Assembly (NCBI GenBank): GCA_029976065.1
Contig: JARKNV010000022.1
Coordinates: forward strand, 1-64,000
From: Selenomonadales bacterium
GTDB lineage: Bacteria > Bacillota > Negativicutes > Sporomusales > UBA7701
Direction of reading: 5' to 3'
Length of the DNA stretch: 64,000 bases
Positions 3,557 through 62,700 of this stretch are shown here, piece after piece (within the stretch, counting starts at the first letter, position 1; each line of letters starts with the position of its first letter). The position numbers and the translations under genes were made by a program. Below the pieces are notes generated by a model. That model did no database searches, was not told where the DNA came from, and saw nothing but the letters and a program-made list of their open reading frames with translations.

Positions 3557-4335
3557 TAACGATAAAGATAATAATGTATCTCAGAAATCGCTTTCTGGAG
3601 AAGTCTTATAACCTCATGGCTCTTCTCTTCGCTTGCGTTTCCGATCGGAAAGGAAATATTTATGGACGCAATGATATTATGGGTGGGGCTGATCAATGGT
3701 TCGGCAATACTTCTGGCGCCAAGACCCATCTCATCTAAGGTAATTGCATAGCCGTCCTTGCGAATCTGGGCAATTTCCGCGCGCAACTTGGCGATGTCAA
3801 TGTTGAAAGAGTTTTCGGACTCCTCAATCTGCTCCCTGATGATTTCGTCAATTTGAGAATCGCTCAGTGACGCGAGTATTACCTTACCGCCGGCACCGAC
3901 GTACAGAGGCACCGGCGTTCCGATCGGCAGATAATGGTACAGCCTGAATCTCTCTTCGCCCTCTACACGGCTGACCACGACGCGGTATTTGTTCTGCAGA
4001 ATATTCAGCGTTGCATTCGCTCCAACTTTCGCTACAATATCCTGCATATATGGCATTGAAATCTTGACAAGATCCATTTGCGTCAGTGCGGCGCTTCCCA
4101 GTCGGAAAAATCCTTTGCCGATGCTGTACAAATCAGTTACCTGATCCTGATCGACCAAAGCGTAGGATTTTAACGTTCGCAGGATGCGAAACACTGTCGC
4201 TTTAGGAAGGGATAAGCTTGCCGCGATCTCTGTCAGGCCTTTTCCGGGATGCTCAGCGATATAATACAGGACTTCACAGGCGCGCTCAACGGCGCGGACG
4301 GAATTTGTGCTTTCATTTCGATTATGAATGTTCAT
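3556..4335 (-). CDS. IclR-family transcriptional regulator of the citrate lyase operon
   Basis: The 259-residue protein has an N-terminal winged helix (about 15-75; AVERACEVLYYIAEHPGKGL... with LPKATVFRILRTL as recognition region) and a C-terminal IclR effector domain (about 90-255; LPIGTPVPLYVGAGGKVILA and RSIAEPLI). It lies 12 bases after citF on the same strand, so it is probably co-transcribed and autoregulated. Citrate fermentation operons are classically controlled by CitAB two-component systems. An IclR protein here is an inferred local controller that may sense citrate, acetate or a related acid. No strong Shine-Dalgarno precedes the ATG, consistent with coupling to citF. Confidence 0.88.
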   Translation of the reverse strand: MNIHNRNESTNSVRAVERACEVLYYIAEHPGKGLTEIAASLSLPKATVFRILRTLKSYALVDQDQVTDLYSIGKGFFRLGSAALTQMDLVKISMPYMQDIVAKVGANATLNILQNKYRVVVSRVEGEERFRLYHYLPIGTPVPLYVGAGGKVILASLSDSQIDEIIREQIEESENSFNIDIAKLRAEIAQIRKDGYAITLDEMGLGARSIAEPLISPTHNIIASINISFPIGNASEEKSHEVIRLLQKAISEIHYYLYR

Positions 4336-48658: not shown

Positions 48659-50197
48659 TTACCTGGACAGAGCCGGCATCAACTGCCAGGCGAGCTCGAC
48701 GCCGAACTCCTTCTTGAACCATTTGCGGTGCTGTTCCGCCTCTTGGATCTCGATGGCCGCTCCCTGGGGGCCGACCGCCAGCGCCAGGCTGGCTTCCTTG
48801 GCCTTCAGGCCGGCCGTCGCCCTGGACACCACCCCCATCTGAGTGGTGTCGAGACATTCGGCCAGCGCCAGCAGCAGGGCCATCTTGCGGGCCTTCTGCC
48901 AGTCGGTGTCGTCGAGGAATTCAGTGTACAGGCGGTTGCGCATATACTTCGCGGTCGGGCCCTCGTGCCAGCCCGCCACCACCGCCGTCAGCATCTGCTC
49001 GCGATGGGTGAGGCCGAACAGGCGGGCATTCTCCACCAGATACGCCGTATGGCGGGGATGATCATAATAATTGATCGTTATGCCGATATCGTGGAGCAGG
49101 GCCGCCACCCTGAGGAGCATGCGGTCGCGTTCGTCGAGCTTGTGCAGGTCCTGCCAGCCGTCGAACATGGCCTCCGCCAGGTCGGCGACATGGTAGGCGT
49201 GAGGCGTGTTGCCCTTGTAGAAAAGCAGCATGTTATTAGTGCTGTGAAGCAGAATATTGTCGATTACTTCCGGCCGGCCGGTGCTGGTCAGATAGTAACG
49301 GAGAAAGAGGCCCTCTCTCAGGCCGCAGCCGCTGATGATCAGGCGGTTGGCGCGGGTGACGTCGAACAGGCACTTGACGATCGTGCTGCCGGCGACGATG
49401 ATATCGGCCCGTTCGCTGCTCAGCCCGGGAATTTTCAGACGCTGCTTGTAATCGGTCAACACCAGGGTCCGCCACAGGTCGGTGAGGGAAATGTCGCCCA
49501 GGCGATAGTTGTGGACCTTGTTGAAGGGGTAGTTTTTCCGCTTCTGATCCATCTTGGCGATGTTGCGGGCCGTACCGCCCACCCCCACGAGGGGCAGGCC
49601 GACATTCTTGAGCCACGGATTTTTTTCCAGTTGGTGCATAATATAACCGCGGAGCTTCTCGAGCTGCAAGTCGGTTATGCGGTCCTGGGCGGCGAATTGT
49701 TCCGTAAGGTTGACCGCCCCGAACGGCAGGCTGACCACCTTCTGCGGTTTGCGGTCGCGGATGAGCGTAAGCTCGGTGCTGCCGCCGCCGAGGTCGAACA
49801 GCACCCCGTCCTCGACATTGATGGTGTTGATGACGCCGATATAACCGATAAAAGCTTCGTCATGGCCGGAGATCGACTCCAGGCGTATGCCTGTTTCCGA
49901 TTCGATCAACTCGATGAGCGTCGGACCGTTCTTGGCGCTCCGGACCGCCGCGGTCGTCACGGCCAGCGTCTTGTCGACCTTGAACAGCAGGCACATATGG
50001 GCGAAGGTCCGCATCGTCTCCACCGCCCGCCTGACCGCGTCCGGCCTGAGGGTGTGCGACTTGCCCATCCCTTCGCTGAGCCGCACCGTCTCCTTCTGGT
50101 GATAGACGAGGTTATAGGCGCCGTTTGCGTAAATATGCATTACGATAAGGCGGGCGGAGTTCGAGCCAAGGTCGATGATGGCTAATCTTTCCGTCAT
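48659..50197 (-). CDS. ppx: exopolyphosphatase / GppA phosphatase with C-terminal HD domain (Ppx)
   Basis: The enzyme removes terminal phosphate from polyphosphate and/or pppGpp. Its ASKHA motifs are complete: IDLGSNSARLIV (about 6-17), ISGHDEAFIGY (about 119-129, glutamate region) and DLGGGSTELTL (about 143-153). An HD domain follows, with ALLHDIGITINYYDHPRHTAY (about 344-364 in parts). At 512 residues it is the long Ppx form. I start at the ATG at 50197 with GGGGAGTGATAGACA upstream. It diverges from the ppx-like/ppk operon across 189 bases. Confidence 0.92.
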   Translation of the reverse strand: MTERLAIIDLGSNSARLIVMHIYANGAYNLVYHQKETVRLSEGMGKSHTLRPDAVRRAVETMRTFAHMCLLFKVDKTLAVTTAAVRSAKNGPTLIELIESETGIRLESISGHDEAFIGYIGVINTINVEDGVLFDLGGGSTELTLIRDRKPQKVVSLPFGAVNLTEQFAAQDRITDLQLEKLRGYIMHQLEKNPWLKNVGLPLVGVGGTARNIAKMDQKRKNYPFNKVHNYRLGDISLTDLWRTLVLTDYKQRLKIPGLSSERADIIVAGSTIVKCLFDVTRANRLIISGCGLREGLFLRYYLTSTGRPEVIDNILLHSTNNMLLFYKGNTPHAYHVADLAEAMFDGWQDLHKLDERDRMLLRVAALLHDIGITINYYDHPRHTAYLVENARLFGLTHREQMLTAVVAGWHEGPTAKYMRNRLYTEFLDDTDWQKARKMALLLALAECLDTTQMGVVSRATAGLKAKEASLALAVGPQGAAIEIQEAEQHRKWFKKEFGVELAWQLMPALSR

Positions 50198-50282
50198 TTG
50201 TCTATCACTCCCCACACAAAATAGTATTCGGCTTTTTTTACAAAATCCTTGCCGGGCGTACGAAAAAACGGCGACAAACAAA

Positions 50283-50309
50283 TTGACAGACTTTTACAAA
50301 AAATTAACA
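50283..50309 (+). promoter_or_regulatory. PHO-box-like direct repeats upstream of the ppx-like/ppk operon
   Basis: TTTACA (50293-50298) and TTAACA (50304-50309) are separated by five bases, the classic Firmicutes PhoP spacing. TTGACA (50283-50288) lies four bases before them and ACTAAC five bases beyond. TTGACA may double as a -35 for CATAAT (50308-50313), 19 bases on. PhoP control under phosphate limitation would fit the polyphosphate genes. Confidence 0.6.
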
Positions 50310-50386
50310 TAATAACTAACCGGGAAAGAGGAATTTGGCCGGCAACACCCGAAGTTTTTAGTTATAAGCTTTTGGAGGCTAAATCC

Positions 50387-51940
50387 ATGTCCAACTTTTT
50401 CGGCGTAATGCATATCGGTTCCGAGCAAGTCAGCCTGCAGATAGTCGAGTACACCTCCCTGGGGGATATGAAAACCGTCGAGCGGGCCAGCTCGCAGGTC
50501 ACCCTCGGCGAGGAAACCTTCAAAACCGGTCGGATCAGTTTCGCCGCCGTTCGCGAACTGTGCGAGCTGCTGAAAGGCTACCGGCGGATCCTCCACGAAT
50601 ACGGCGTCAAAGAATACCGGCTGCTGGCCACCACCGCCATCCGCGAGGCGGACAACCAGCAGTACATCATCGACCAAGTCAGGCTGAAGACGGGCTTCAC
50701 GCTGGAAGTCGTCGACATGCTCCAGGAAATGTACCAGAAATACATCGCCCTGTTCCGCGACATCGAAGCCGAGGGCCTGTCCGGCGAGCAGGAGGGCATC
50801 CTGTTCGTCGACATCTCCTCCGGCGGACTGTCCTTCACCCTGTACGAGGCCGGTATTCTCCGCTACCAGCAGAACATCCACATCGGCGCGCTGCGCATCA
50901 AGGAGAGCTTTGAAAAATACCAGCGCGACTCCGCCCATTTCTACCAGGCCCTGACCGAATACATCTACAGCACCATCGACCTCGTCGAAATCGAGCTCAA
51001 CCAATACAAAATCAAATACCTCGTCCTGTCGGGAGCCGAAACCGGCCTGCTGCTCAAAATGCTGGGGCGGGACGAGGCCGCCAGGATATCCTATGTCGGC
51101 GTCGACGAGTTCCTTGCCCTGTACGACCGGGTCAAACAACTAAATCTGCCCCAGCTCATGCAGGCCTTCGACCTGTCCGAGAGCCGGGCCGAAATGGTTC
51201 TGCCCACCATCGTCCTCTACCAGCAAATCCTCGCCCTCAGCAACGTCGCGCAGATCGTTGTCTCCGGCGTGCAGTTCGGCGACGGCATCACCATCTCCCA
51301 TATCTCCGAAAAGAGCGGCGACCGGTGGCTGGACGTCGTCGAACAGCAGATCGTCAGCTTCGCCCACACCCTGGGCGAAAAATACCGGCACGACCCCAAG
51401 CACGCCGCCAGCGTGGAAAGCACCTCGCTGCTGCTGTTCGATCGCCTCGTCAAGGTTCACGGCCTCGGCAGGCGCGAACGCTTTTTGCTCAAAGTCGCCT
51501 GCATCCTTCACGACATCGGCAAATACGTCAGCCTTCGGCGGCACTACTTCTATTCCTACCGCCTGATCATCTCCTCCGACATCATCGGTTTTTCCGAGGA
51601 GGAGCGGGCGCTGATGGCCAATGTCGCCTACTACCACTCCAAAGGAACCCCGACCCTCAGCGACGTCAACTTCGCCGCCCTGTCGCCCGCCGGGCGGATA
51701 ACGCTCGCCAAACTGGCGGCCATTATCAGGGTGGCCGACGCCGTCGACCGCGGCCATCTGCAAAAGGCCACCATCGCCAACGTGGCGCTCTGCGGCGAAG
51801 AACTCATCATCACCGTTACCGCCGAACAGGATATATCCCTGGAGGAGTGGACCTTCATCGACAAGGCCGACTTCTTCGAGAACGTGTTCGGCATCCGGCC
51901 GATCCTGGCCCGACAGGGGGAAACGCCCGGTGTTCGATAA
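50387..51940 (+). CDS. degenerate Ppx/GppA-like domain with intact HD domain
   Basis: The 517-residue protein has the Ppx-HD layout, but its ASKHA motifs are altered. The DLGSNS position reads HIGSEQ (about 9-14), the acidic SGxxEA position reads DMLQEMYQK, and the DxGGGSTE position reads DISSGGLSF (about 143-151). The C-terminal HD domain keeps ILHDIGKYVSL (about 367-377). It is therefore probably not a phosphatase on polyphosphate and may be a sensor or regulator. The ATG at 50387 follows TTTTGGAGGCTAAATCC. It overlaps the ppk1 start by eleven bases. Confidence 0.8.
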   Translation: MSNFFGVMHIGSEQVSLQIVEYTSLGDMKTVERASSQVTLGEETFKTGRISFAAVRELCELLKGYRRILHEYGVKEYRLLATTAIREADNQQYIIDQVRLKTGFTLEVVDMLQEMYQKYIALFRDIEAEGLSGEQEGILFVDISSGGLSFTLYEAGILRYQQNIHIGALRIKESFEKYQRDSAHFYQALTEYIYSTIDLVEIELNQYKIKYLVLSGAETGLLLKMLGRDEAARISYVGVDEFLALYDRVKQLNLPQLMQAFDLSESRAEMVLPTIVLYQQILALSNVAQIVVSGVQFGDGITISHISEKSGDRWLDVVEQQIVSFAHTLGEKYRHDPKHAASVESTSLLLFDRLVKVHGLGRRERFLLKVACILHDIGKYVSLRRHYFYSYRLIISSDIIGFSEEERALMANVAYYHSKGTPTLSDVNFAALSPAGRITLAKLAAIIRVADAVDRGHLQKATIANVALCGEELIITVTAEQDISLEEWTFIDKADFFENVFGIRPILARQGETPGVR

Positions 51941-54023
51941 ACACGACTACTTCATCAACCGGGAACTGAGCTGGCTGAAGTTCAACCTGCGCGTCCTGCG
52001 CGAAGCCCAGGACAAGCGCAACCCGCTCCTGGAGAGAGTGCGCTTCATCGGCATCACCGGCTCGAATCTCGACGAATTCTACATGATCCGCGTTGCCGGC
52101 CTCCGGCGGCAGCTCGAAAACGGCGTCAACAAGCTCGACGCGGCCGGGCTGACGGTGGAGGAACAACTGCGTCAGATCTCGCTGAGCACGCGCGAACTGG
52201 TGAAAAAGATGTACAACTACCTGCGGGTGCTGAGGCGGGAGATGGAGAAGGAAGACATCTTCTTCGCCACCGTCGAGGACCTGCCGGACAAAAACCGCGC
52301 CTGGACGGAGCGTTACTTCCACCACACCATCTATCCCGTCCTTACGCCGCTCGCCGTCGATTCCAGCCACCCCTTCCCCTTCCTCCTCAACCGCAGCCTC
52401 AACCTCGCCGTCGAACTCCGCCAGGACGGCGAAACCAGGACGGCCGTCATCCAGGTGCCCAGCGTGCTGCCCCGGATAGTCGAAACCCCGGCGATCGGCC
52501 GCAAGCGGCGGTTCGTCTTTCTTGAGGAAATAATCAAAGCCTATTGCGACGAGCTCTTCCACGGCTATGACGTCAAGGAAGTCACCCCGTTCCGCATCAC
52601 CCGCAACGCCGACCTGTCCATCGACGAAGAAGAGGCCGACGATCTGCTGGCCGAGGTCCAGAAATCGCTCCGTCAGCGCAAACGCGGGCAAACGGTGCGC
52701 CTCGAAATCGCCAAAACGGCCAGCCGTTCCATGCGGGAATTCATCATCGACAGCCTCAAAATCGCCGAACAGGACGTGTTCGAAATCCGCGGCCCGATCG
52801 ACACCAGCTACTTCATGCGGTTCGCCGATCTGCCCGGCGGCAGCCGGCTGCGCTACGAGCCGTTCATCCCTGCCGTGCCCGCCGATCTCGTGGGCGAGGA
52901 AGACCTGTTCGCCGCCATCCGCCGGCGCGAGATACTTCTCCACCATCCCTACGAATCGTTCGCCCCGGTGGTCGAATTCATCCGCCGCGCCGCCGTCGAC
53001 CCTCAGGTGCTGGCCATCAAACAGACCCTCTACCGCGTCGGCGGCGACTCGCCGATCGTCGCCGCGCTGGCCCAGGCGGCCGAAAACGGCAAGCAGGTCA
53101 CCGTGCTGGTCGAACTGAAGGCGCGCTTCGACGAGGAGAACAACATCCTCTGGGCCCGCCGGCTTGAAGAGGCCGGCTGCCATGTTATCTACGGGCTCGT
53201 CGGCCTCAAGACCCACGCCAAGATCGCCCTGGTGGTGCGCAAGGAGACCGCCGGCATCAAACGCTACGTCCATCTCGGCACAGGCAACTACAACGACGTC
53301 ACCGCCAAGCTCTACACCGACCTGGGGCTGTTCACCGCCAACGACCAGATCGGGGCCGACGCCTCCGCCTTCTTCAACGTCATCTCCGGCTACTCCGACC
53401 CGCCGGTATGGAACAAATTCGCCGTTGCCCCCATCGGCCTCAGGCAGAAATTCTACGAACTGATCGACCGGGAGATCGGCTTCGCCCGCTCCGGCAAGCC
53501 GGCCCGCATCATCGCCAAAGTCAACTCCCTCGTCGACAAGGAAGTCGTCCGCAAACTCTACGAAGCGTCCAACGCCGGCGTGAAAATCGACCTCATCGTC
53601 CGCGGCATCTGCCAGCTCAGACCCGGCATCCCCGACGTGAGCGACACAATCACCGTCAGAAGCATCGTCGGCCGCTTCCTTGAGCATAGCCGGATATTCC
53701 TGTTCGCCAACGGCGGCGACGAACGCGTATTTCTGTCCAGCGCCGACTGGATGTTCCGCAACCTCAGCGAGCGGGTCGAACTCCTCTTCCCGGTGGACGA
53801 CCCCGCCCACGTCGAGCGCATCAGGGCCATTCTCGACCTCTTTCTGCAGGACAGCCAGAAAGCCTATGTAATGAGAACCGACGGCAGTTACCGCCGCGCG
53901 GACAAACGGGCCCGCAACATCAGCAGCCAGGAGGAACTCCTTCTTCAGGCCAGCCAGGCCGCCATGGCCGAGGACGTGCCGCTCGAAAAGCGGCTGAAGC
54001 CCGCCTACCGCCGCGGCGAGTAG
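51930..54023 (+). CDS. ppk1: polyphosphate kinase 1 (Ppk1)
   Basis: Ppk1 polymerises the gamma-phosphate of ATP into polyphosphate and can run in reverse. The 697-residue protein has the expected N domain (FINRELSWLKFNLRVL), head domain and two catalytic PLD-like C domains. The phospho-accepting histidine is in GLKTHAKIALV (about 426-436), and YVHLGTGNYND (about 446-456) and VRGICQLRPG follow. The GTG start at 51930 overlaps the ppx-like gene by 11 bases, so translation is coupled and the two products are made together. Confidence 0.96.
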   Translation: MFDKHDYFINRELSWLKFNLRVLREAQDKRNPLLERVRFIGITGSNLDEFYMIRVAGLRRQLENGVNKLDAAGLTVEEQLRQISLSTRELVKKMYNYLRVLRREMEKEDIFFATVEDLPDKNRAWTERYFHHTIYPVLTPLAVDSSHPFPFLLNRSLNLAVELRQDGETRTAVIQVPSVLPRIVETPAIGRKRRFVFLEEIIKAYCDELFHGYDVKEVTPFRITRNADLSIDEEEADDLLAEVQKSLRQRKRGQTVRLEIAKTASRSMREFIIDSLKIAEQDVFEIRGPIDTSYFMRFADLPGGSRLRYEPFIPAVPADLVGEEDLFAAIRRREILLHHPYESFAPVVEFIRRAAVDPQVLAIKQTLYRVGGDSPIVAALAQAAENGKQVTVLVELKARFDEENNILWARRLEEAGCHVIYGLVGLKTHAKIALVVRKETAGIKRYVHLGTGNYNDVTAKLYTDLGLFTANDQIGADASAFFNVISGYSDPPVWNKFAVAPIGLRQKFYELIDREIGFARSGKPARIIAKVNSLVDKEVVRKLYEASNAGVKIDLIVRGICQLRPGIPDVSDTITVRSIVGRFLEHSRIFLFANGGDERVFLSSADWMFRNLSERVELLFPVDDPAHVERIRAILDLFLQDSQKAYVMRTDGSYRRADKRARNISSQEELLLQASQAAMAEDVPLEKRLKPAYRRGE

Positions 54024-54054: not shown

Positions 54055-54083
54055 TTGACGGGCTATGCCCCACCACTTATACT
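54055..54083 (+). promoter_or_regulatory. promoter of the riboswitch leader
   Basis: TTGACG (54055-54060) and TATACT (54078-54083) have a 17-base spacer. Transcription from about 54090 would give a leader of about 200 bases before the larA-like start. Confidence 0.75.
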
Positions 54084-54125
54084 ATATTGTAATACATGTA
54101 TAATGTATACAGGCACAGTTTATGA

Positions 54126-54236
54126 TGGAAGTGCGCCTAGGGTTCCGGCCGCGCCCGCGGCGTCTGGTCCGAGCGGCGCAAGACCCTGCGACAGGGTCGA
54201 CACCGTGGGTGCAAAATACCCCAGCGGAAAGTTCCA
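54126..54236 (+). ncRNA. ykkC-family riboswitch aptamer (subtype 2-like)
   Basis: The conserved ykkC core CTAGGGTTCCGG (54137-54148) and CTGGTCCGAG (54164-54173) are present. Pairings fit the family: P1 TGGAA (54126-54130) with TTCCA (54232-54236); GCGCC (54133-54137) with GGCGC (54175-54179); GCCGC (54148-54152) with GCGGC (54157-54161); GACCCTG (54182-54188) with CAGGGTC (54192-54198); and the GGGT-ACCC P3 hairpin (54207-54221) after ACACCG. The 3' core reads CCAGCGGAAAG. This resembles the CCCAGGCGG of ppGpp/PRPP subtypes more than the CCCGGGAGA of the guanidine-I subtype. The ligand is thus not settled. Confidence 0.82.
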
Positions 54237-54267
54237 CAGGGAATTTTCGCTGGGGTTTTCTAATTTT
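54219..54267 (+). terminator. riboswitch-controlled terminator
   Basis: CCCCAGCG (54219-54226) pairs with CGCTGGGG (54248-54255), extended by AAA/TTT and TTCC/GGGAA pairs, and is followed by TTTTCTAATTTT. The 5' arm uses bases of the aptamer's P3 and P1 core. Ligand binding should therefore block the terminator, an ON switch. Confidence 0.8.
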
Positions 54268-54289
54268 CTTACAGGGGAGAGTGGCGGTT

Positions 54290-55582
54290 ATGGCAGAATA
54301 CACGCTTCCTTTCGGCAGCGGCACGGTCACGTTCGCCCTGCCGGCGGCGCGGAGCATCCAGGTGGTCGACGGCAAACCCGTCCCGCCGGTCAAGGATATC
54401 GCCGCCGCCGTGCGCCAGGCTCTCGCTCGCCCGATCGGCACGCCGCCCCTCGGGCAAGTGGTGGTTCCCGGCGACCGCGTGGCCGTCGTCGCCAGCGACC
54501 TGACCCGCAGCGGCCTTCGCCATGACCTCTTCCTGCCCGTGCTGCTCGACGAACTTAACGCTGCCGGCATCCCCGACCGGGACATAACCCTCGTCGTGGC
54601 TCTCGGCGCCCACCGCTGCCATACATCGGACGAGAACCTGACCGTCTACGGGCCGGAAATCGTCAGCCGCGTCCGCATCGCCCAAAGCTTCGCCGGCGAC
54701 CCGGACGGCTTCATACTTCTCGGCACCACCTCCCGCGGCGTGGCCGCAAGGCTCAGCCGCCACGTCGCCGCTGCCGACAAAGTAATCCTCACCGGCGGCA
54801 TCGTCTACCACTCCATGGCCGGGTTCGCCGGCGGCCGGAAAAGCCTCGTCCCCGGCGTGGCTGCCTACGAAACCATCCAGGCCAACCACCGCTTCTGCCT
54901 GAGCGACACCCCCGGCGGCGGCCTCAACCCCCTCTGCGGCAGCGGCCTCTTAGCCGGCAACCCGCTCCACGAAGACCAGCTGGAAATCGCCGCCATGCTC
55001 GCCCCCGCCTTCCTGCTCAACGTCATCCCCGCGCCCGCCGGCGGCATCGCCGGCTTCGTCGCCGGCCACTGGCGCGAGGCGTGGGAGGAGGGCTGCCGGC
55101 GGGTGGCCGCCATCTACGGCGTGCCTGTCCGCGAGAAGACCGACCTTGTCATCGCGTCCGCCGGCGGCTACCCCAAGGACATAAACTTCTACCAGGCCAC
55201 CAAGGCCACTGAAAACGCCCTGGCGGCCTGCAAACAGGGCGGCGTCGTCATCGCCCTCCTGGAATGCCGTCAGATTGCCGAGCCGCCCGACTTCAGCGGC
55301 TGGTTCGACATTACCTCGCTCGCCGAGCGGGAGAGCGGGCTGAGAGAACGATTTACCGTGCCGGGCTTCGTGGCCTTGAAAACCGGCCTCGATGCCCGGC
55401 GGATCCCTCATATCATCGTCACCCTGCCGGAAAACCGCGCCTTCATCGCCAAGGCGGGCATGACGCCGGCAGACTGCTTCGGCGCGGCCCTGGCGCTCGC
55501 CGAAGCCAGGCTCGGGCGCACGGACTACACCGTCACCGTGATGCCCCACGCCGCCGAAACCCTGCCGCTCCCGGCCGGGTGA
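54290..55582 (+). CDS. LarA-family (nickel-pincer racemase-like) protein
   Basis: LarA enzymes use a nickel-pincer nucleotide to racemise or epimerise 2-hydroxy acids. The 430-residue protein has [13 protein letters not shown] (about 102-114) and [21 protein letters not shown] (about 169-189), which hold the conserved histidines and lysine of LarA, plus [17 protein letters not shown] (about 287-303). No LarB, LarC or LarE is nearby. The substrate may not be lactate. GGGGAGAG precedes the ATG at 54290, and expression depends on the riboswitch. Confidence 0.82.
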
Positions 55583-55610
55583 GGCGCGCCTCAATTTAGG
55601 AGGGATTTAT

Positions 55611-56909
55611 TTGTATTGGAATAAACCGATGGAAACCATGAGCCGGCCGGAACTGGCGGCCTTGCAGACCACCAGGCTGCGCGATACCGTCGACCGCGCC
55701 TACCGCCAAGTGCCGTTCTACCGCAGCCGGATGCAGGCCGCCGGCCTGCTGCCCGAAGACGCCGCCAGCCTCGACAACATCGGGCGGCTGCCCTTCACCA
55801 CCAAACAGGACATGCGCGACAACTACCCCTACGGCCTGTTCGCCGTGCCGCCGGCTGAAATCGTCCGCATCCACGCTTCCAGCGGCACCACCGGCAAACC
55901 GACCGTCGTCGGCTACACCAAGCGCGACATCGGCATCTGGGCCGAGGTCATGGCGCGCACGCTGACCGCGGCTGGCGCCAGCCGCCAGTCCTACATCCAG
56001 GTGGCCTACGGCTACGGCCTGTTCACCGGCGGCCTGGGCGTCCACTACGGCGCCGAACTCGTCGGCGCGTCCGTCATCCCCGTTTCGAGCGGCAACACCG
56101 CCCGGCAGATAATGCTCATGAAAGACTTCGGCACCACCCTGCTGGCCTGCACGCCGTCCTATGCCCTCTACATCGCCGAAACCCTCGGTGAAATGGGCCT
56201 CGAGCCCAAGGACCTCTCGCTGCGCGCCGGCGTCTTCGGGGCCGAGCCGTGGTCGGAACGCATGCGCAAGGAAATCGAGGCCCGCCTGTCGATCAAGGCC
56301 ATCGACATCTACGGCCTCAGTGAAATCATCGGCCCGGGCGTGGCCAGCGAATGCGAGTGCCAGGAAGGCCTGCACATCAACGAAGACCACTTCTACCCCG
56401 AAATCATCAACCCCGTGACAGGAGAAACGCTGCCGGACGGCGAAAAGGGCGAACTGGTGCTGACCACCATCACCAAAGAAGGCATGCCCATGATCCGCTA
56501 CCGCACCCGCGACCTCACGGTGCTCAACCGCAAGCCGTGCGCCTGCGGGCGGACGCTCGTGCGCATGGGCAAGGTGCTGGGGCGCAGCGACGACATGCTC
56601 ATAATCCGGGGCGTCAACGTCTTTCCCTCCCAGGTGGAGACCGTGCTCCTCGGCCTCGGCGAAACCTCGCCCCACTACCAGCTTATCGTCGACCGCGAAG
56701 ACAACCTCGACAAACTCACCGTCCTCGTCGAACTCACCGAGGCGCTGTTCTCCGACGAGGTTCGCCGGCTGGAAACGCTCGAGCACAGGATCGAAGCCGC
56801 CCTGGCCAGCGTGCTCGGGGTGACGGCCCAGGTGCGCCTGGTGGGGCCGAAGAGCATCGAGCGCAGCGAAGGCAAAGCCAAACGGGTTATCGACAACCGC
56901 AAACTGTAA
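55611..56909 (+). CDS. phenylacetate-CoA ligase family (PaaK-like) adenylate-forming enzyme
   Basis: The 432-residue protein activates an aryl or short carboxylic acid to its CoA thioester. The P-loop [16 protein letters not shown] (about 87-102), [10 protein letters not shown] (about 234-243) and the C-terminal hinge [19 protein letters not shown] (about 325-343) are diagnostic of PaaK. Fermenters use such ligases for aryl acetates from aromatic amino acids. The start is the TTG at 55611, with AGGAGGGA upstream. It is followed by an ACT-domain gene, a common pairing. Confidence 0.88.
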
Positions 56910-56924
56910 GGGGGAGCGACAACC

Positions 56925-57353
56925 ATGATCATCAAGCAAATCTCGGTTTTCCTCGAGAACAAGCCGGGCACGCTGGCGCAGGTGCTGACCGTCCTGGGCG
57001 AGAACAACTTCAACCTCCGGGCCCTGTCGGTCGCCGACACCGCCGATTTCGGCATCCTCAGGCTGGTGGTCAACGAGCCCGACAAGGTCGAGCAGGCCCT
57101 CAAAGGGGCAAGCCTCGCCGTCAAAACGACCCCCGTGCTGGCCATGAAAATTTCCGACAAGCCGGGCGGGCTGCTGGCCGAGGTCAATAAACTCACCGCC
57201 GCCAACATAAACATCGAATACATCTACGCCTTTGCCGCCGCGGCCGCCGACGAGGCGCGGGTCGTGCTCAAGGTGGACGACCTCGCCAAAGCCGAGAAGA
57301 TACTGAACGGCGAAAAGACCGACGGCGGCGACGGACCGAATTTCTACTGGTGA
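56925..57353 (+). CDS. tandem ACT-domain protein
   Basis: The 142-residue protein contains two ACT repeats: IIKQISVFLENKPGTLAQVL (about 2-21) and KISDKPGGLLAEVNKLTAANINIEYIYAF (about 71-99, in pieces). ACT domains bind amino acids and regulate partner enzymes. Next to PaaK it is inferred to sense an aromatic or branched amino acid. GGGGGAGCGACAACC precedes the ATG, 15 bases after paaK; a terminator follows. Confidence 0.88.
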   Translation: MIIKQISVFLENKPGTLAQVLTVLGENNFNLRALSVADTADFGILRLVVNEPDKVEQALKGASLAVKTTPVLAMKISDKPGGLLAEVNKLTAANINIEYIYAFAAAAADEARVVLKVDDLAKAEKILNGEKTDGGDGPNFYW

Positions 57354-57390
57354 ATTTAAGCCGGTCTGACCCTGAATTTCATCGGCTCTT

Positions 57391-57417
57391 GGGGACGCAA
57401 ACGCGCCCCCCTTTTTT
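57391..57417 (+). terminator. terminator of the larA-like/paaK/ACT operon
   Basis: GGGGACGC-AAAC-GCGCCCC forms a stem with one A-C mismatch, followed by CCTTTTTT. Confidence 0.75.
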
Positions 57418-57590: not shown

Positions 57591-59768
57591 ATGTGGGCCA
57601 GCAAGTTCCCGCGACGGACCTTCCTCAAAGCCACGGCCGCCACAGCAGCCGCCGTGGGTGCGGGGGATGTCTTTTCCTTCGGCGAGTGGATGAAACAGGC
57701 CAATGCCGCTCCGGTGACCAAGATTCCGTCCCTCTGTGAAACCTGCTCGGCGGCGTGCGGCATGTGGGTGCACGTCAAGAACGGCCGGATTTGGAAGGTC
57801 ACCGGCCAGAAGGATCATTCCCAGAGCAGGGGGCAACTGTGCGCCCGCGGGCACGCAGGCATCGCCCAGGCCTATCACAAGGACCGCATCACCCACCCCA
57901 TGAAGCGCGTCGGCGAAAACGACTTCGTGCCGGTCTCCTGGGAGCAGGCGTACAGCGAAATCGCCGCCAAGCTCAAAAAAGTGCTCCAGGAACACGGACC
58001 CGACAAAGTCTTCTTTTCCCACAATCCCCGGCCGACCAACGCTTTCTATTGGCCGCGCCTCATGGCGGCCGTCGGCTCGAACACCATCCAGTCCCACCAC
58101 TCCATGTGCAGCACCGGCCGCGACGTCGCCTACAAATGGACGACCGGCGGCATGGCCACCGCCGACCTGGGCAAGACCAAATATATCGTCTTCCTCGGCC
58201 GCAACTACGTCGAGGGCCTCTCGCCCTCCTCGGCGGCCGGCATGGCGGCCGCCCACGAAAAGGGCACCACCATCATCGTCGTCGACCCCCGCCACAGCAA
58301 TGCCTGCCTGTTCGCCACCGAGTGGGTGCCGATCAGGCCGGGCACCGACCTCGCCCTGCTGCTGGCCGTCGCCAACGTCCTCATCGCCGAGGACCTCTAC
58401 GACAAAGAGTTCGTTGACGAATGGTGCGCCGGCTTCGACGAGTTCAAGAAAGGCATGAAAGAGTACACTCCCGAGTGGGCGTCCGCCGTCACCGACATCC
58501 CCGCCGCCATCATCTACGCCATCGCCCGCGGCCTGGGCAAGAACAGGCCCGCCAGCTGTATCGAGCAGGGCTACAAGGCGCCCAACGGCTGCAACTACGC
58601 CAACGGCACCCAGATGTTCCGCATGGTCGCCTGCGTCAACGCCCTGCTCGGCAACTACGGCCAGGACGGCGGCATGAAATTCCCCAATGCCCCCAGACTC
58701 GGCTCGCTCGACGCCAAAAAATACCCGGCCCCGCCCAAATCCAAGGCCGCCCGCTGCGACGGCGTCGGCATCAAGGGCGAGTTCCCCCTCTGCCAGACCA
58801 GCCAGGGCATCGTCCACGTGATGCCCCAGCGGGCGCTCGAAGGCAAAGCCAAAGCCGGTTTCCTCTACCGCATCAACGTCGCCCGCAACGCCCCCGATCC
58901 CGAACTGCTCACCAGAGGCTACAAAGCCCTCGACCTCTTCGTCGTCTGCGACATCAAATGGTCCGAGTCGGCGATGTGCGCCCACTACGTCCTGCCGGAG
59001 TGCAGCGCCGCCGAGCGCGAGGACCTGCCGGCCATAGTCGGCGCGGCCGTCACCATGCGCACCGCCGCCATCGACCCCGTCCACGCCGAAACCAAGCCCC
59101 TGCCGGACATCGTCACCGAATTCGCCGGCTACATGGGCCTCGAGCAATACTTCAACTTCACCCGCGAGGACGTCGCCGCCGCCATGGTCAAGCCGCTGGG
59201 CGTCACCCTCGACGACCTCAGAGCCAAAGGCACCGTCAAGGTCAAAGCCCCGGCCGCCAAGCCGCTCAGCTTCGCCACCGGGTCCAAGAAAGTCGAACTC
59301 TACTGCAAAGCCTTCGCCGACCACGGCTTCAAGCCGGTGCCCGAATGGGAGCCGCCCTACGCCAAAGCCGGCAAGGACAGCTTCGTCCTCATCCACGGCA
59401 AACAGGGCTTCCTGTCCCACACCACCAGCATCAGCGACCCTTACCTCCTGGCCGTCGCCAAACGGGGCGATCTGGAGCGGCTGTGGATCAACGCCGACCG
59501 GGCCAAGAAAATGGGCATCAGGAATGGTGACCTCGTCGAAGTCGCCTCGCCGCAGGCCAAGCGGCGCGTCAGAGTCAAAGTAACTGAGCGCGTCCACCCC
59601 GACGCCGCCTACCTGCCCGCCGGCTACGGCCGTTTCGCCCCCTTCCTCAAAACGGGCGTCGGCTACGGCATCAACCCCAACGACTTCGTCCCCTGCCGGG
59701 CGGAAGCCATCTCCGGCCACGCCATGATGATGGAAGTCACCGTCACCGTCAGAAAGGCGGGTGAATAA
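57591..59768 (+). CDS. Tat-exported molybdopterin oxidoreductase (PsrA/PhsA-like)
   Basis: The 725-residue catalytic subunit has a Tat signal (FPRRTFLKATAATAAAVG, about 6-23). An N-terminal [4Fe-4S] motif, CETCSAACGMW...QLCARGH, spans about 49-89, with C-x2-C-x3-C and a distant fourth cysteine. A SHHSMCSTGRD segment (about 166-176) has a cysteine that fits the molybdenum ligand of PsrA/PhsA/FdhN-like enzymes. It may reduce sulfur compounds or another acceptor, or act on a different substrate. GGGAGGCGAAGAAACGAAT precedes the ATG. Its neighbours are a ferredoxin subunit and [NiFe] hydrogenase. Confidence 0.9.
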   Translation: MWASKFPRRTFLKATAATAAAVGAGDVFSFGEWMKQANAAPVTKIPSLCETCSAACGMWVHVKNGRIWKVTGQKDHSQSRGQLCARGHAGIAQAYHKDRITHPMKRVGENDFVPVSWEQAYSEIAAKLKKVLQEHGPDKVFFSHNPRPTNAFYWPRLMAAVGSNTIQSHHSMCSTGRDVAYKWTTGGMATADLGKTKYIVFLGRNYVEGLSPSSAAGMAAAHEKGTTIIVVDPRHSNACLFATEWVPIRPGTDLALLLAVANVLIAEDLYDKEFVDEWCAGFDEFKKGMKEYTPEWASAVTDIPAAIIYAIARGLGKNRPASCIEQGYKAPNGCNYANGTQMFRMVACVNALLGNYGQDGGMKFPNAPRLGSLDAKKYPAPPKSKAARCDGVGIKGEFPLCQTSQGIVHVMPQRALEGKAKAGFLYRINVARNAPDPELLTRGYKALDLFVVCDIKWSESAMCAHYVLPECSAAEREDLPAIVGAAVTMRTAAIDPVHAETKPLPDIVTEFAGYMGLEQYFNFTREDVAAAMVKPLGVTLDDLRAKGTVKVKAPAAKPLSFATGSKKVELYCKAFADHGFKPVPEWEPPYAKAGKDSFVLIHGKQGFLSHTTSISDPYLLAVAKRGDLERLWINADRAKKMGIRNGDLVEVASPQAKRRVRVKVTERVHPDAAYLPAGYGRFAPFLKTGVGYGINPNDFVPCRAEAISGHAMMMEVTVTVRKAGE

Positions 59769-59770
59769 CC

Positions 59771-60304
59771 ATGCCGCGCTACGCCATGATCATCGACGCC
59801 AGGAAATGCGTCGGCTGCTACGCCTGCCAGGTCGCCTGCCAGATGCAGAACGAACTGGGGCCGGAAAGCGTCTTTATCCGCTTTGAAGACCGGGAAACGG
59901 GCAAATACCCCAACCCCAAATACGTCATGGTTCCCCTGCAGTGTCAGCACTGCCAGGACGCCCCGTGCGTGCCCGTCTGCCCCACCACCGCCTCCCATAA
60001 AGACAAGAACGGCCTGACCATGATCGACAAGAACAAATGCATGGGCTGCCGGCGCTGTGTCGCCGCCTGTCCCTACAACGCCCGCACCTACCTCAAGGAC
60101 GAAGGCGTCGTCCAGGCCTGCAACCTGTGCCTGTCGCTCGTCGCCCAGGGCGAGGAGCCGGCCTGCGTATCCACCTGCCTCACAAAGGCCCGCTACTTCG
60201 GCGACCTCGACGACCCCAAGGGCGAATTCGCCAAACAGCTCGCCAGAGCCAAGCAGCTCAGGCCGGACTTCGGCACCAAGCCGACCCTGCTCTACATCAT
60301 ATAG
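59771..60304 (+). CDS. four-cluster ferredoxin subunit (PsrB/PhsB-like)
   Basis: The 177-residue protein has four cysteine quartets: CVGCYACQVAC (about 13-23), CQHCQDAPCVPVCP (about 58-71), CMGCRRCVAACP (about 90-101) and CNLCLSLVAQGEEPACVSTC (about 117-136). This is the DmsB/PsrB arrangement of four [4Fe-4S] clusters. It would pass electrons between the molybdoenzyme and hydrogenase. It has no signal peptide, so it is probably co-exported with a Tat partner. It starts two bases after the previous stop. Confidence 0.93.
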   Translation: MPRYAMIIDARKCVGCYACQVACQMQNELGPESVFIRFEDRETGKYPNPKYVMVPLQCQHCQDAPCVPVCPTTASHKDKNGLTMIDKNKCMGCRRCVAACPYNARTYLKDEGVVQACNLCLSLVAQGEEPACVSTCLTKARYFGDLDDPKGEFAKQLARAKQLRPDFGTKPTLLYII

Positions 60305-60322
60305 CCGCCGGGAGGGATAAAG

Positions 60323-61300
60323 ATGCGAAACCTAAGCCGTCGTGAATTCCTGCGCCTGTGCGGTGCGACCGGAGCCGCGCTTGGCCTCACCCACGCCATC
60401 CAGCCGGAAATCCTCGAAGCCTTCGCCGGCCCCGCCGGCGGCCAGCCGCCGGTCGTCTGGCTCCAGGGAGGCTCGTGCAGCGGCTGCTCCGTGTCGCTTT
60501 TGAACGGCGTCCAGCCGGAGATCGGCAAGGTGCTCACCGAAGTAATCAGCCTCGAATTCCACCAGACCCTGATGGCCGCAGCCGGCGAACCGGCCATGGC
60601 CATCCTGCCGGCCGTCAAAAAACGCTACGCCGGCCAGTACTACCTCGTTGTCGAAGGCTCGGTCTCCACCGGCGAAAAAGCCATGTACTCCACCCTCGGC
60701 GAACGGGACGGCCGCCCCGTGTCCTTCGCCGAATGGGTCAAAACGATGGCCGAAGGCGCCAAAGCCGTCGTCGCCGTCGGTACCTGCGCCGCATACGGCG
60801 GCATACCCGCCGCCGGCAGCAACCCCGCCGGCTGCAAACCGGTCAGCGCCGTCATCGGCGGCGCGCCCCTCATCAACGTCCCCGGCTGCCCCATCCACCC
60901 CGACCGCGTGCTCGGCACCCTCGTCCACGCCATCAAATACGGCCTGCCCGAGCTCGACGAGCACAAGCGCCCCACCGTCTTCTTCGGCAAATGCGTCCAC
61001 GACCTCTGCGGACGGCGCGAAATGTTCGATGAAGGCATATTCGCCACCCGCCTGTCCGAGAAAGGCTGCCTCTACAAGCTAGGCTGCAAGGGGCCGATGG
61101 CCTACAACGACTGCCCCACCCGCAAATACAACAACGGCACCAGCTGGTGCGTCGCCGCCAACGCTCCCTGCATCGCCTGCGTCGAGCCCGGCTTCCCCGA
61201 TCACACCAGCCCCTTCTTCGAGCGCATGCCCGAGTACGGACCGGCCGGCACCCCGTCGCCGCAGCCCCGCCAGGGCAAAATCATCGGGGGTGACAACTAA
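60323..61300 (+). CDS. [NiFe] hydrogenase small subunit, Tat-exported
   Basis: The 325-residue protein has a Tat signal (LSRREFLRLCGATGAALG, about 4-21). Iron-sulfur cysteines are in GGSCSGCSVSLLN (about 50-62), GTCAAYGGI (about 153-161), GCPIHPD (about 192-198), KCVHDLC, and the distal CLYKLGCKGP and CIACVEPGF motifs. It matches group 1-type periplasmic uptake hydrogenases. It overlaps the large-subunit gene by one base. GGGAGGGATAAAG precedes the ATG. Confidence 0.95.
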   Translation: MRNLSRREFLRLCGATGAALGLTHAIQPEILEAFAGPAGGQPPVVWLQGGSCSGCSVSLLNGVQPEIGKVLTEVISLEFHQTLMAAAGEPAMAILPAVKKRYAGQYYLVVEGSVSTGEKAMYSTLGERDGRPVSFAEWVKTMAEGAKAVVAVGTCAAYGGIPAAGSNPAGCKPVSAVIGGAPLINVPGCPIHPDRVLGTLVHAIKYGLPELDEHKRPTVFFGKCVHDLCGRREMFDEGIFATRLSEKGCLYKLGCKGPMAYNDCPTRKYNNGTSWCVAANAPCIACVEPGFPDHTSPFFERMPEYGPAGTPSPQPRQGKIIGGDN

Positions 61301-62700
61301 TGCGCAAAATCGTAATCGACCCCGTAACCCGCCTTGAGGGTCACCTTAAAGTCGAGGTCACGGCCGACAACGGCAAAGTGGTCGCCGCCGAAGCCGCCGG
61401 CACCATGTACCGCGGTTTCGAAACCATCCTCGCCGGCCGCGACCCGCGCGACGCCGTCTACATCACCCAGCGCATCTGCGGCGTCTGCCCCGTCAGCCAC
61501 GCCACCGCCGCCGCCTTCGCCCTCGACGACGCCTTCGGCGTCCAGGTGCCGTCCAACGGCCGCATCATCAGAAACCTCATCCTCGGCGGCAACTTCCTCC
61601 AGTCCCACATCATCCACTTTTACAACCTCTCCCTGCCCGACTACGTACAGTTCCCGGCGGTCGCGCCCTTCACCCACCACTACACCGGCGACTACCGCTT
61701 CAACAAAGAAACCAACGAACGGCTCGTCGGCAACTACTTCAAAGCCCTCGAAATCCGCCGCAAATGCCACGAAATGGTCGCCGTCTTCGGCGGCAAGATG
61801 CCCCATCAGGTGGCCATCATCGCCGGCGGCACCTCCATGACCGCCCAGAAGGACAAAATCGACGCCTACCGGCAGCTGCTGGCCGAAATCGCCCAATTCG
61901 TCGCCAACGAATACGCCGAAGACACCCGCCTCCTCGCCAACGCCTACAGCGACTACTTCCAGGTCGGCAAAGGCCCGGCCAACTTCCTCGCCTACGGCGC
62001 CTTCCCGCTTGACGACGCCGGCGGCGACAAACTGTTTGGCGCGGGCGTCCACCTCGGCGGCCAGCCGGCGGCCTTCGACGCCGCCAAAATCACCGAAGAC
62101 GCCACCCATTCCTGGTACGACCAAACCGCCGACGGCCAGCCGGCCCAAACCGCCACCAACGCCAGCTACGGCAAAACCGGCGCCTACAGTTGGGTCAAAG
62201 CGCCGCGCTACGGCGGCGAAGTCTGCGAAGTCGGCCCGCTGGCCCGCATGTGGATATCCGGCCGCTACACCGCCGGCGTATCCGCCATGGACCGCATCGT
62301 CGCCCGCACGCTCGAAGCCGCCCTGCTGACCAAGGCCCTCGCCGGCTGGCTCGACGAACTCGTACCCGGCGCCCCCTGCGAAGCGGCTGTCGAAATACCC
62401 TACGCCGCCGCCGGCGTCGGTCTGATGGAAGCTCCGCGCGGCGCCCTCGGCCACTGGGTCACCATCAGGAACCACCGTATCGAACGCTACCAGGCGGTCG
62501 TACCCACCACCTGGAACGCCTCGCCCCGCGACGCGGGCGGCAAAGCCGGCGCCCTCGAGCAGGCCCTCATCGGCCTGCCGGTCCCCGACGCCGACAACCC
62601 CCTGGCGGTCGTCCGCACCGTCCACTCCTTCGACCCGTGCCTGGCCTGCGCCGTCCACGTCATCACCCCCGGCCGGCCGGTCGGCGAATTCAGACTGTAA
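61300..62700 (+). CDS. [NiFe] hydrogenase large subunit
   Basis: The 466-residue catalytic subunit ligates the NiFe site with RICGVC (about 58-63) and the C-terminal DPCLACAVH (about 445-453). Thirteen residues follow the last histidine (VITPGRPVGEFRL), the usual extension removed by a HyaD/HycI-type protease after nickel insertion. It has no signal and is expected to ride out with the small subunit. No maturation genes or cytochrome b subunit follow. Confidence 0.96.
   Translation: MRKIVIDPVTRLEGHLKVEVTADNGKVVAAEAAGTMYRGFETILAGRDPRDAVYITQRICGVCPVSHATAAAFALDDAFGVQVPSNGRIIRNLILGGNFLQSHIIHFYNLSLPDYVQFPAVAPFTHHYTGDYRFNKETNERLVGNYFKALEIRRKCHEMVAVFGGKMPHQVAIIAGGTSMTAQKDKIDAYRQLLAEIAQFVANEYAEDTRLLANAYSDYFQVGKGPANFLAYGAFPLDDAGGDKLFGAGVHLGGQPAAFDAAKITEDATHSWYDQTADGQPAQTATNASYGKTGAYSWVKAPRYGGEVCEVGPLARMWISGRYTAGVSAMDRIVARTLEAALLTKALAGWLDELVPGAPCEAAVEIPYAAAGVGLMEAPRGALGHWVTIRNHRIERYQAVVPTTWNASPRDAGGKAGALEQALIGLPVPDADNPLAVVRTVHSFDPCLACAVHVITPGRPVGEFRL

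Follow-up and report, generated by a model that had tools for sequence, protein, structure and literature searches.

A probable ppGpp-class ykkC riboswitch precedes a larA-paaK-ACT operon in a Selenomonadales bacterium

Results

Organization of the larA-paaK-ACT locus

The locus studied is positions 54055-57417 (+) of a 64,000-nt stretch (the window) of contig JARKNV010000022.1 from a Selenomonadales bacterium. Its sequence reads as a single transcription unit with a promoter, an RNA of the ykkC riboswitch family, a terminator, three genes, and a likely end terminator. Transcription would start from a putative sigma-70-type promoter (TTGACG-17-TATACT, 54055..54083, +) that matches the consensus at 10/12 positions. 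The consensus scan found three promoter-like sites in a 3.8-kb stretch compared to 0.7 expected. The ykkC-fold aptamer occupies 54126..54236 (+) and is followed by a candidate intrinsic terminator that ends in a U run (54218..54259, +), recognized from the sequence and from folds of the window stretch and 11 sister RNAs.

The first gene (54290..55582, +) encodes a LarAH10-family 2-hydroxyacid racemase dependent on the nickel-pincer nucleotide (NPN), with Lar_N and LarA_C domains. Its 596-bit score passes the LarAH10 equivalog cut-off of 540 for NF052525, which makes it a putative member of the racemases acting on phenyllactate and other hydrophobic 2-hydroxyacids; the window copy is distinguished by its location in a ykkC-led operon with a coenzyme A (CoA) ligase. 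A LarC-family (Ni_insertion) gene is found in the window's genome. The second gene (55611..56909, +) has a TTG start and encodes a PaaK-like aryl/acyl-CoA ligase (TIGR02155, 604.6 bits) whose closest solved chain is 2y27, a phenylacetate-CoA ligase (E 5e-144). The third gene (56925..57353, +) encodes a tandem ACT-domain protein (PF19571 ACT_8, 90.5 bits; solved relative 2f06). These family scans bear out the larA-like, paaK-like, and ACT assignments of a first-pass annotation made from the sequence alone. The probable operon terminator, located by eye at 57391..57417 (+), is GGGGACGC-AAAC-GCGCCCCC followed by T6, with one mismatch, and this GC stem and T run fit an operon end. Neither this element nor the terminator at 54218..54259 is on the list from the consensus terminator scan.

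The RNA has a ykkC fold that overlaps a terminator

The Rfam model RF00442 (Guanidine-I) matches the RNA end to end at 54126-54229 (+) with a score of 59.5 bits and an E of 2.7e-10 in a 371-base search. The score is slightly below the gathering score of 63, and for this reason a gathering-level Rfam scan of the whole window lists three tRNAs only. The RNA has the P1-P3 fold with the CUAGGGUUCC, CUGGNCCRAG, and ACAC cores of the ykkC motif. The alignment and pair counts place P1 at 54132-54137/54175-54180, P1a-P1b at 54140-54170, P2 at 54182-54198, P3 at 54207-54221, and the 3' tail at 54222-54231 (all +). The covariance model finds the fold over its full length, and the complete P1-P3 aptamer described in the first-pass annotation is present. 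The two tails also pair to form P0 (UGGAA/UUCCA, 54126-54130/54232-54236, +), a helix that the annotation did not name and that is found in the non-guanidine ykkC subtypes. Three aptamer elements, namely the 3' strands of P3 and P0 and the conserved GCGG, are also part of the terminator stem (54218-54256), in agreement with the earlier claim that the terminator shares core bases of the aptamer.

RF00442 was used to search 28 genomes of the order at E ≤ 0.001, giving 128 matches in 27 of the 28 genomes, to which the genome of the window contributes three. A total of 102 RNAs were examined (99 plus the three own-genome RNAs), and the 26 omitted are all in genomes G011-G016. The downstream genes are ilv, leu, glt, or liv (ppGpp-type contexts) for 44 RNAs, pur for 21, paaK-ACT for 12, a HAD-NUDIX fusion for five, SMR for three, and an MFS transporter with LarAH10 for three; 14 contexts were left unnamed. 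Here, ppGpp is guanosine tetraphosphate. Genes were named first by sequence look, and family scans of a single representative then bore out each of the names ilvC, ilvN, ilvB, leuA, leuC, purC, purE, purF, permease, glutamate synthase, liv, HAD-NUDIX, MFS, and SMR; the gene that opens the glt units had no Pfam match. Four of the 12 paaK RNAs have larA between the RNA and paaK (the window, G022, G023, and G025), and larA in the paaK operon is seen in the window's genus only. The two other RNAs of the window's genome are a phosphoribosyl pyrophosphate (PRPP)-like RNA (L001, G000:C68:74901-75020) before a xanthine/uracil-family permease gene and a ppGpp-like RNA (G000:C34:89973-90071) between an acetolactate-synthase-like large-subunit gene and ilvN.

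The structure is conserved among the 12 paaK RNAs. Paired cells make up 94.4% of the total, a value reached by none of 500 shuffles, and 20 cells show changes in both partners of a pair compared to 7.5 in the shuffles (0/500). These two-sided changes are spread over 8/30 pairs, which 26/500 shuffles reach, and the number of pair types in the 12 RNAs shows no excess over chance (142/500 shuffles). The P0 cells are 93.3% paired, yet P0 contains no two-sided change. In the predicted folds a stable hairpin downstream of ACACCG absorbs GCGG and the P0 strand in all 12 RNAs, and absorbs the P3 strand as well in 10; for L042 and L128 the minimum-energy fold leaves the P3 strand out. The 85-nt folds of the 12 RNAs range from -21.5 to -40.1 kcal/mol. 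This is the geometry of the ppGpp riboswitch described in PMC10687018, where ppGpp stabilizes the outer helix (their P1, equivalent to P0 here) against a terminator and an ON mechanism was measured. By analogy, the window RNA is predicted to be an ON switch, and the same logic in the first-pass annotation agrees with the terminator-overlap geometry.

The aptamer is closest in sequence to ppGpp-type (2a) RNAs

The reference RNAs carry ligand labels taken from gene context and published descriptions, not from binding data. Model R2 was built from 20 RNAs of ilv/leu/glt/liv contexts (ppGpp-type), none from paaK operons, and model R3 from 15 pur RNAs (PRPP-type). The window RNA scored 87.9 bits with R2 versus 55.0 bits with R3. 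The 12 paaK RNAs scored 83-99 with R2 and 41-59 with R3, and R2 was the higher score in 12/12. Five held-out 2a RNAs gave 104-122 with R2 and 59-74 with R3, four held-out pur RNAs gave 62-67 and 143-145, and three guanidine-type RNAs of the same order gave 45-48 and 19-31. A nearest-neighbor test, run with each RNA's own genome left out, was correct for 80/80 labelled RNAs, seven of which had been called guanidine-I from their core and not from their genes, and it assigned 12/12 paaK RNAs and 3/3 MFS-LarA RNAs to 2a.

The spacer from CACCG to GGG/GAG is one nucleotide in the window and in 12/12 paaK RNAs. The ppGpp-context RNAs have the one-nucleotide spacer in 43/44 cases, the remaining one being off-pattern, and the pur RNAs have two nucleotides in 21/21. 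As described in PMC6031431, ykkC marker position 49 is A in guanidine-I RNAs and a pyrimidine in the ppGpp and PRPP types. The residue is C54174 in the window and C in 12/12 paaK RNAs, which places these RNAs in the non-guanidine subtype 2. By motif, C54201 corresponds to C75 of PMC6031431, the residue that pairs with the ligand. The window RNA shares with the 2a class the P0 fold, the marker residue, the one-nucleotide spacer, the terminator overlap of an ON switch, and amino-acid-biosynthesis neighbors; it differs in its paaK-ACT and LarAH10 targets, in an extra A before GCGG (12/12), and in having G-C, not C-G, at the base of P1b. The comparison assigns the window RNA to the ppGpp type rather than the PRPP type, and from this class affinity we infer ppGpp as the likely ligand. 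The ppGpp- or PRPP-type subtype proposed in the first-pass annotation is narrowed to the former by the profile scores, the nearest neighbors, and the spacer.

Other subtype assignments were considered. The nucleoside diphosphate (2c) type was set aside; the window RNA has no HAD/NUDIX association and lacks the GGCACCUAUUGGC core of the order's five such RNAs. A GCGGG tail was tried as a mark of the PRPP group and dropped, being present in one paaK RNA (L128) and several ilv RNAs. A review describes a further subtype, 2d, by its EamA/TauE transporter genes and a guanidine-like pocket.

The RNA recurs before paaK-ACT beside amino acid genes

Model R1 was built from the 12 paaK RNAs and used to scan a sample of 300 genomes of the class. 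At R1 ≥ 102 bits there were 21 matches: 19 before paaK, 18 of them in the order and one outside it (G058), and two before a LeuA-family gene (G040 and G055). The matches just below this score (nine loci, L234-L242) all precede glutamate-synthase-type genes by look. Counting a decayed copy in G017, the RNA is found before paaK in 19/28 genomes of the order, in addition to G058. This recurrence, with the structure kept, takes the observation beyond chance. The ACT gene is next after paaK in 17/19 loci, and the G013 and G016 loci stop short of that point. The G017 copy (L247, G017:C1:4588000-4592500) is a paaK-type RNA before paaK-ACT that scores 80.1 bits; the aptamer looks decayed because the 5' strand of P1 is changed, and the terminator side is kept.

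The paaK units are repeatedly found with branched-chain amino acid genes. A second ykkC RNA with ilvN/ilvC follows the paaK unit in G009, G010, G017, G018, and G019. A separate PaaK-locus survey kept 80 loci from 463 in named genomes and overlaps in genomes with the R1 class survey. R1 finds an RNA before paaK in 12/80 of these loci, including Sporomusa malonica, acidovorans, ovata, and silvacetica. Six of the 12 loci have a second R1 match downstream, and ilv/leu genes follow it in both loci examined (L137 and L145). An ACT match is present in 79/80 loci. In 16 loci the PaaK shares ≥76% identity with the query, and the RNA is missing in four of them (L135, L136, L146, and L148). The genes of L148 are consecutive in the order paaK-ACT-ilvN-ilvC-leuA, and L135 (Lucifera butyrica) has ppx-ppk-paaK-ACT by look. 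A cluster in Malonomonas rubra (L171) shares the PaaK-ACT pair; iorA-iorB-like genes are adjacent there and none are adjacent in the window, and unlike the window it has no RNA by R1 at E 1. The paaK-ACT pair is therefore wide, and control by the RNA is seen mainly in this order. As a repeated neighbor of ilvN-ilvC-leuA in the order, paaK-ACT fits the known amino acid regulon of the ppGpp riboswitch. The first-pass annotation knew no such targets for any ykkC class; the downstream survey it proposed shows the downstream genes to be less foreign than it supposed.

A second hydroxyacid context for 2a-like RNAs is the RNA-MFS transporter-LarAH10 unit found at L049 (G026), L099 (G020), L106 (G021), and L266 (G001). 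In a quick tree the operon larA forms one clade of four genomes that is separate from the MFS-LarA copies and the G001 LarA, which suggests that LarAH10 came under such RNAs more than once. The G024 LarA (L132) was considered as an operon member without its RNA; the tree shows that it is another paralogue, so the G024 operon is simply without larA.

Discussion

A model for ppGpp-dependent acid salvage

The data are best explained by a ykkC 2a (ppGpp-class) transcriptional ON switch for a salvage route that turns aryl or branched acids into amino acids, which on this evidence is the probable function of the RNA. In the absence of ligand, the nascent 54218-54256 stem would form and RNA polymerase would stop at the U run. 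At high ppGpp, binding between P3 and the P0 region would keep the 3' strands of both helices in the aptamer, the terminator would be blocked, and larA-paaK-ACT would be expressed. PaaK would then activate carboxylic acids of the aryl or branched-chain kind as CoA thioesters. A 2-oxoacid:ferredoxin oxidoreductase encoded elsewhere in the genome could reductively carboxylate these thioesters, giving the 2-oxoacids from which Phe/Tyr/Trp or Val/Leu/Ile are made. Through the LarAH10 racemase, the corresponding 2-hydroxyacids (phenyllactate type) would enter the same pool as either enantiomer, and the ACT pair may sense the amino acid product. In rumen microbes, according to PMC7356843, phenylacetate can serve as a source of Phe and isovalerate as a source of Leu. 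The Megasphaera elsdenii LarAH10 is reported to racemize phenyllactate (PMC7583248), and PMC11770544 describes activity of Megasphaera LarAH10 on 16 mostly hydrophobic 2-hydroxyacids. Together with the ilv-leu neighbors, this literature is the reason that salvage is favored over breakdown, the substrates and direction being those the gene context suggests.

The riboswitch class is known, and paaK-ACT and LarAH10 are an apparently new gene context for it; neither context was found for ykkC/ppGpp riboswitches in the open-licence literature searched, which did not cover the primary ppGpp-riboswitch gene tables. If the model is correct, the ppGpp-riboswitch regulon extends past de novo amino acid synthesis and import, and starvation also opens the rebuilding of amino acids from aryl and branched acids and hydroxyacids, including by a nickel-dependent racemase. 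It would also give the widespread paaK-ACT pair a testable function and make the paaK-type RNA a natural ykkC pocket variant useful for specificity work.

Several observations pull against this model, those on the fold and the pathway given here and those on the aptamer class in the next section. The minimum-energy fold of the window stretch contains the terminator and not the aptamer, a single-sequence result that is not decisive. The TIGR02155 score of the ligase is below the equivalog cut-off of 646.3, and the protein is accordingly termed PaaK-like. Gluconate is suggested in PMC11770544 to be the likely native substrate of the Megasphaera LarAH10. The window's genome has only a below-cut-off match (573 versus 650.9 bits) to the alpha subunit of indolepyruvate ferredoxin oxidoreductase (IOR). 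Among the 28 genomes of the order, 25 have an IOR match, 14 of them above the cut-off; at the limit used there is none in G009, which has the RNA-paaK unit, in G017, which has the decayed copy, or in G001. An IOR gene as a fixed partner of the operon is unsupported by this distribution.

The strongest competing explanation keeps the 2a switch and reverses the pathway, with ppGpp inducing the use of aryl and hydroxy acids as carbon and energy sources. PaaK and LarA relatives act in catabolism elsewhere, and the RNA-MFS transporter-LarAH10 units (G001, G020, G021, and G026) resemble hydroxyacid uptake. The location of paaK-ACT within or beside ilvN-ilvC-leuA units argues for salvage instead, as do the same-lineage RNAs that precede a LeuA-family gene, and a degrading role is possible but clearly the less likely of the two.

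Alternative ligands

The aptamer itself has features that depart from the 2a pattern. The R2 scores of the paaK RNAs (83-99) are below those of the held-out 2a RNAs (104-122), a comparison in which the model rows include close kin of the held-out RNAs and none of the paaK RNAs. The extra A (A54223) is present in 12/12 paaK RNAs and in only 3/44 other 2a-context RNAs (L080, L100, and L107), and G54148 is present in 12/12. In a tree of 102 RNAs the paaK group is supported at 99/95 and nested within 2a. Constraining the paaK RNAs to lie beside the pur or guanidine-I RNAs costs 1.7 likelihood units, with p = 0.46 and 0.47 in the approximately unbiased (AU) test, and forcing the 2a, paaK, and MFS-LarA RNAs into one clade also lowers the likelihood, by 2.4 (p = 0.44); these constrained tests omitted five 2c RNAs and two long rows. 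The tree as proof of subtype was given up once these alternatives went unrejected, and with the placement fragile the subtype call rests on the profiles and characters.

The well-supported paaK group, its two uniform residues, and its lower R2 scores could mark a ykkC variant with its own ligand, such as pGpp, a nucleotide-linked acyl intermediate, or another phosphorylated compound, signalled by the extra A before GCGG and the swapped first P1b pair. The paaK-type RNAs would then be a separate subtype-2 specificity class that reports an acid-activation metabolite or a different alarmone instead of ppGpp. This is doubtful: L080, L100, and L107, which precede glt and liv operons, have the extra A too, and same-lineage RNAs with U in its place precede the LeuA-family gene in G040 and G055.

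A PRPP (2b) riboswitch that couples the operon to purine status shares the overall scaffold of the window RNA. As described in PMC6031431, position 96 distinguishes ppGpp from PRPP aptamers and is G in PRPP RNAs. This position is ambiguous in the window, being A54223 if P3 has four pairs and the PRPP-like G54224 in the Rfam register, and a tree with the paaK RNAs beside the pur group is not rejected (p = 0.46). The CCAGCGG motif that the first-pass annotation had taken as its subtype clue is weak alone for these same two reasons, even though the guess of a ppGpp or PRPP type drawn from it stands. The 2b RNAs have a two-nucleotide spacer (CACCG-NN-GGG) and purine genes. No paaK RNA (0/12) has this spacer, the R3 scores are low, and a different RNA of the window's genome, L001, is of the pur type and precedes the permease gene, all of which make PRPP control of the operon very unlikely.

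An ordinary guanidine-I riboswitch can be dismissed with near certainty: RF00442 is the best Rfam match, but its score is below the gathering cut-off, the marker residue is C and not A, the core is CACCG and not CACGG, no guanidine genes lie downstream, and the guanidine-type RNAs of the order reach only 45-48 bits with R2.

Neighboring genes and other observations

Just upstream of the RNA (48659-54023) are two Ppx/GppA-family genes and a polyphosphate kinase gene, an arrangement that G022 (L248) also shows by look. Elsewhere, pppGpp is a substrate of GppA-type enzymes.

A ykkC-like RNA in G025 (L048, G025:C3:3994-8303) is found at locus positions 4001-4110 on the minus strand (RF00442, 45.3 bits, E 5.7e-7). 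It lies 93 bases before genes for a nucleotide cyclase of the cyclic-oligonucleotide-based antiphage signaling system (CBASS) type and a phospholipase effector (PADLOC, E 1.2e-99 and 2.9e-91). It would be unusual for a riboswitch to precede a defence operon, and this is the single case seen. Relatives of the cyclase were limited to one distant protein (30% identity) in 398 genomes, none close in viral contigs, and plasmid matches of ≤45.7% identity.

Downstream of the operon, 57591-62700 encodes a molybdopterin oxidoreductase with a twin-arginine translocation (Tat) signal match, a ferredoxin-like subunit, and then the small and large subunits of a NiFe-hydrogenase.

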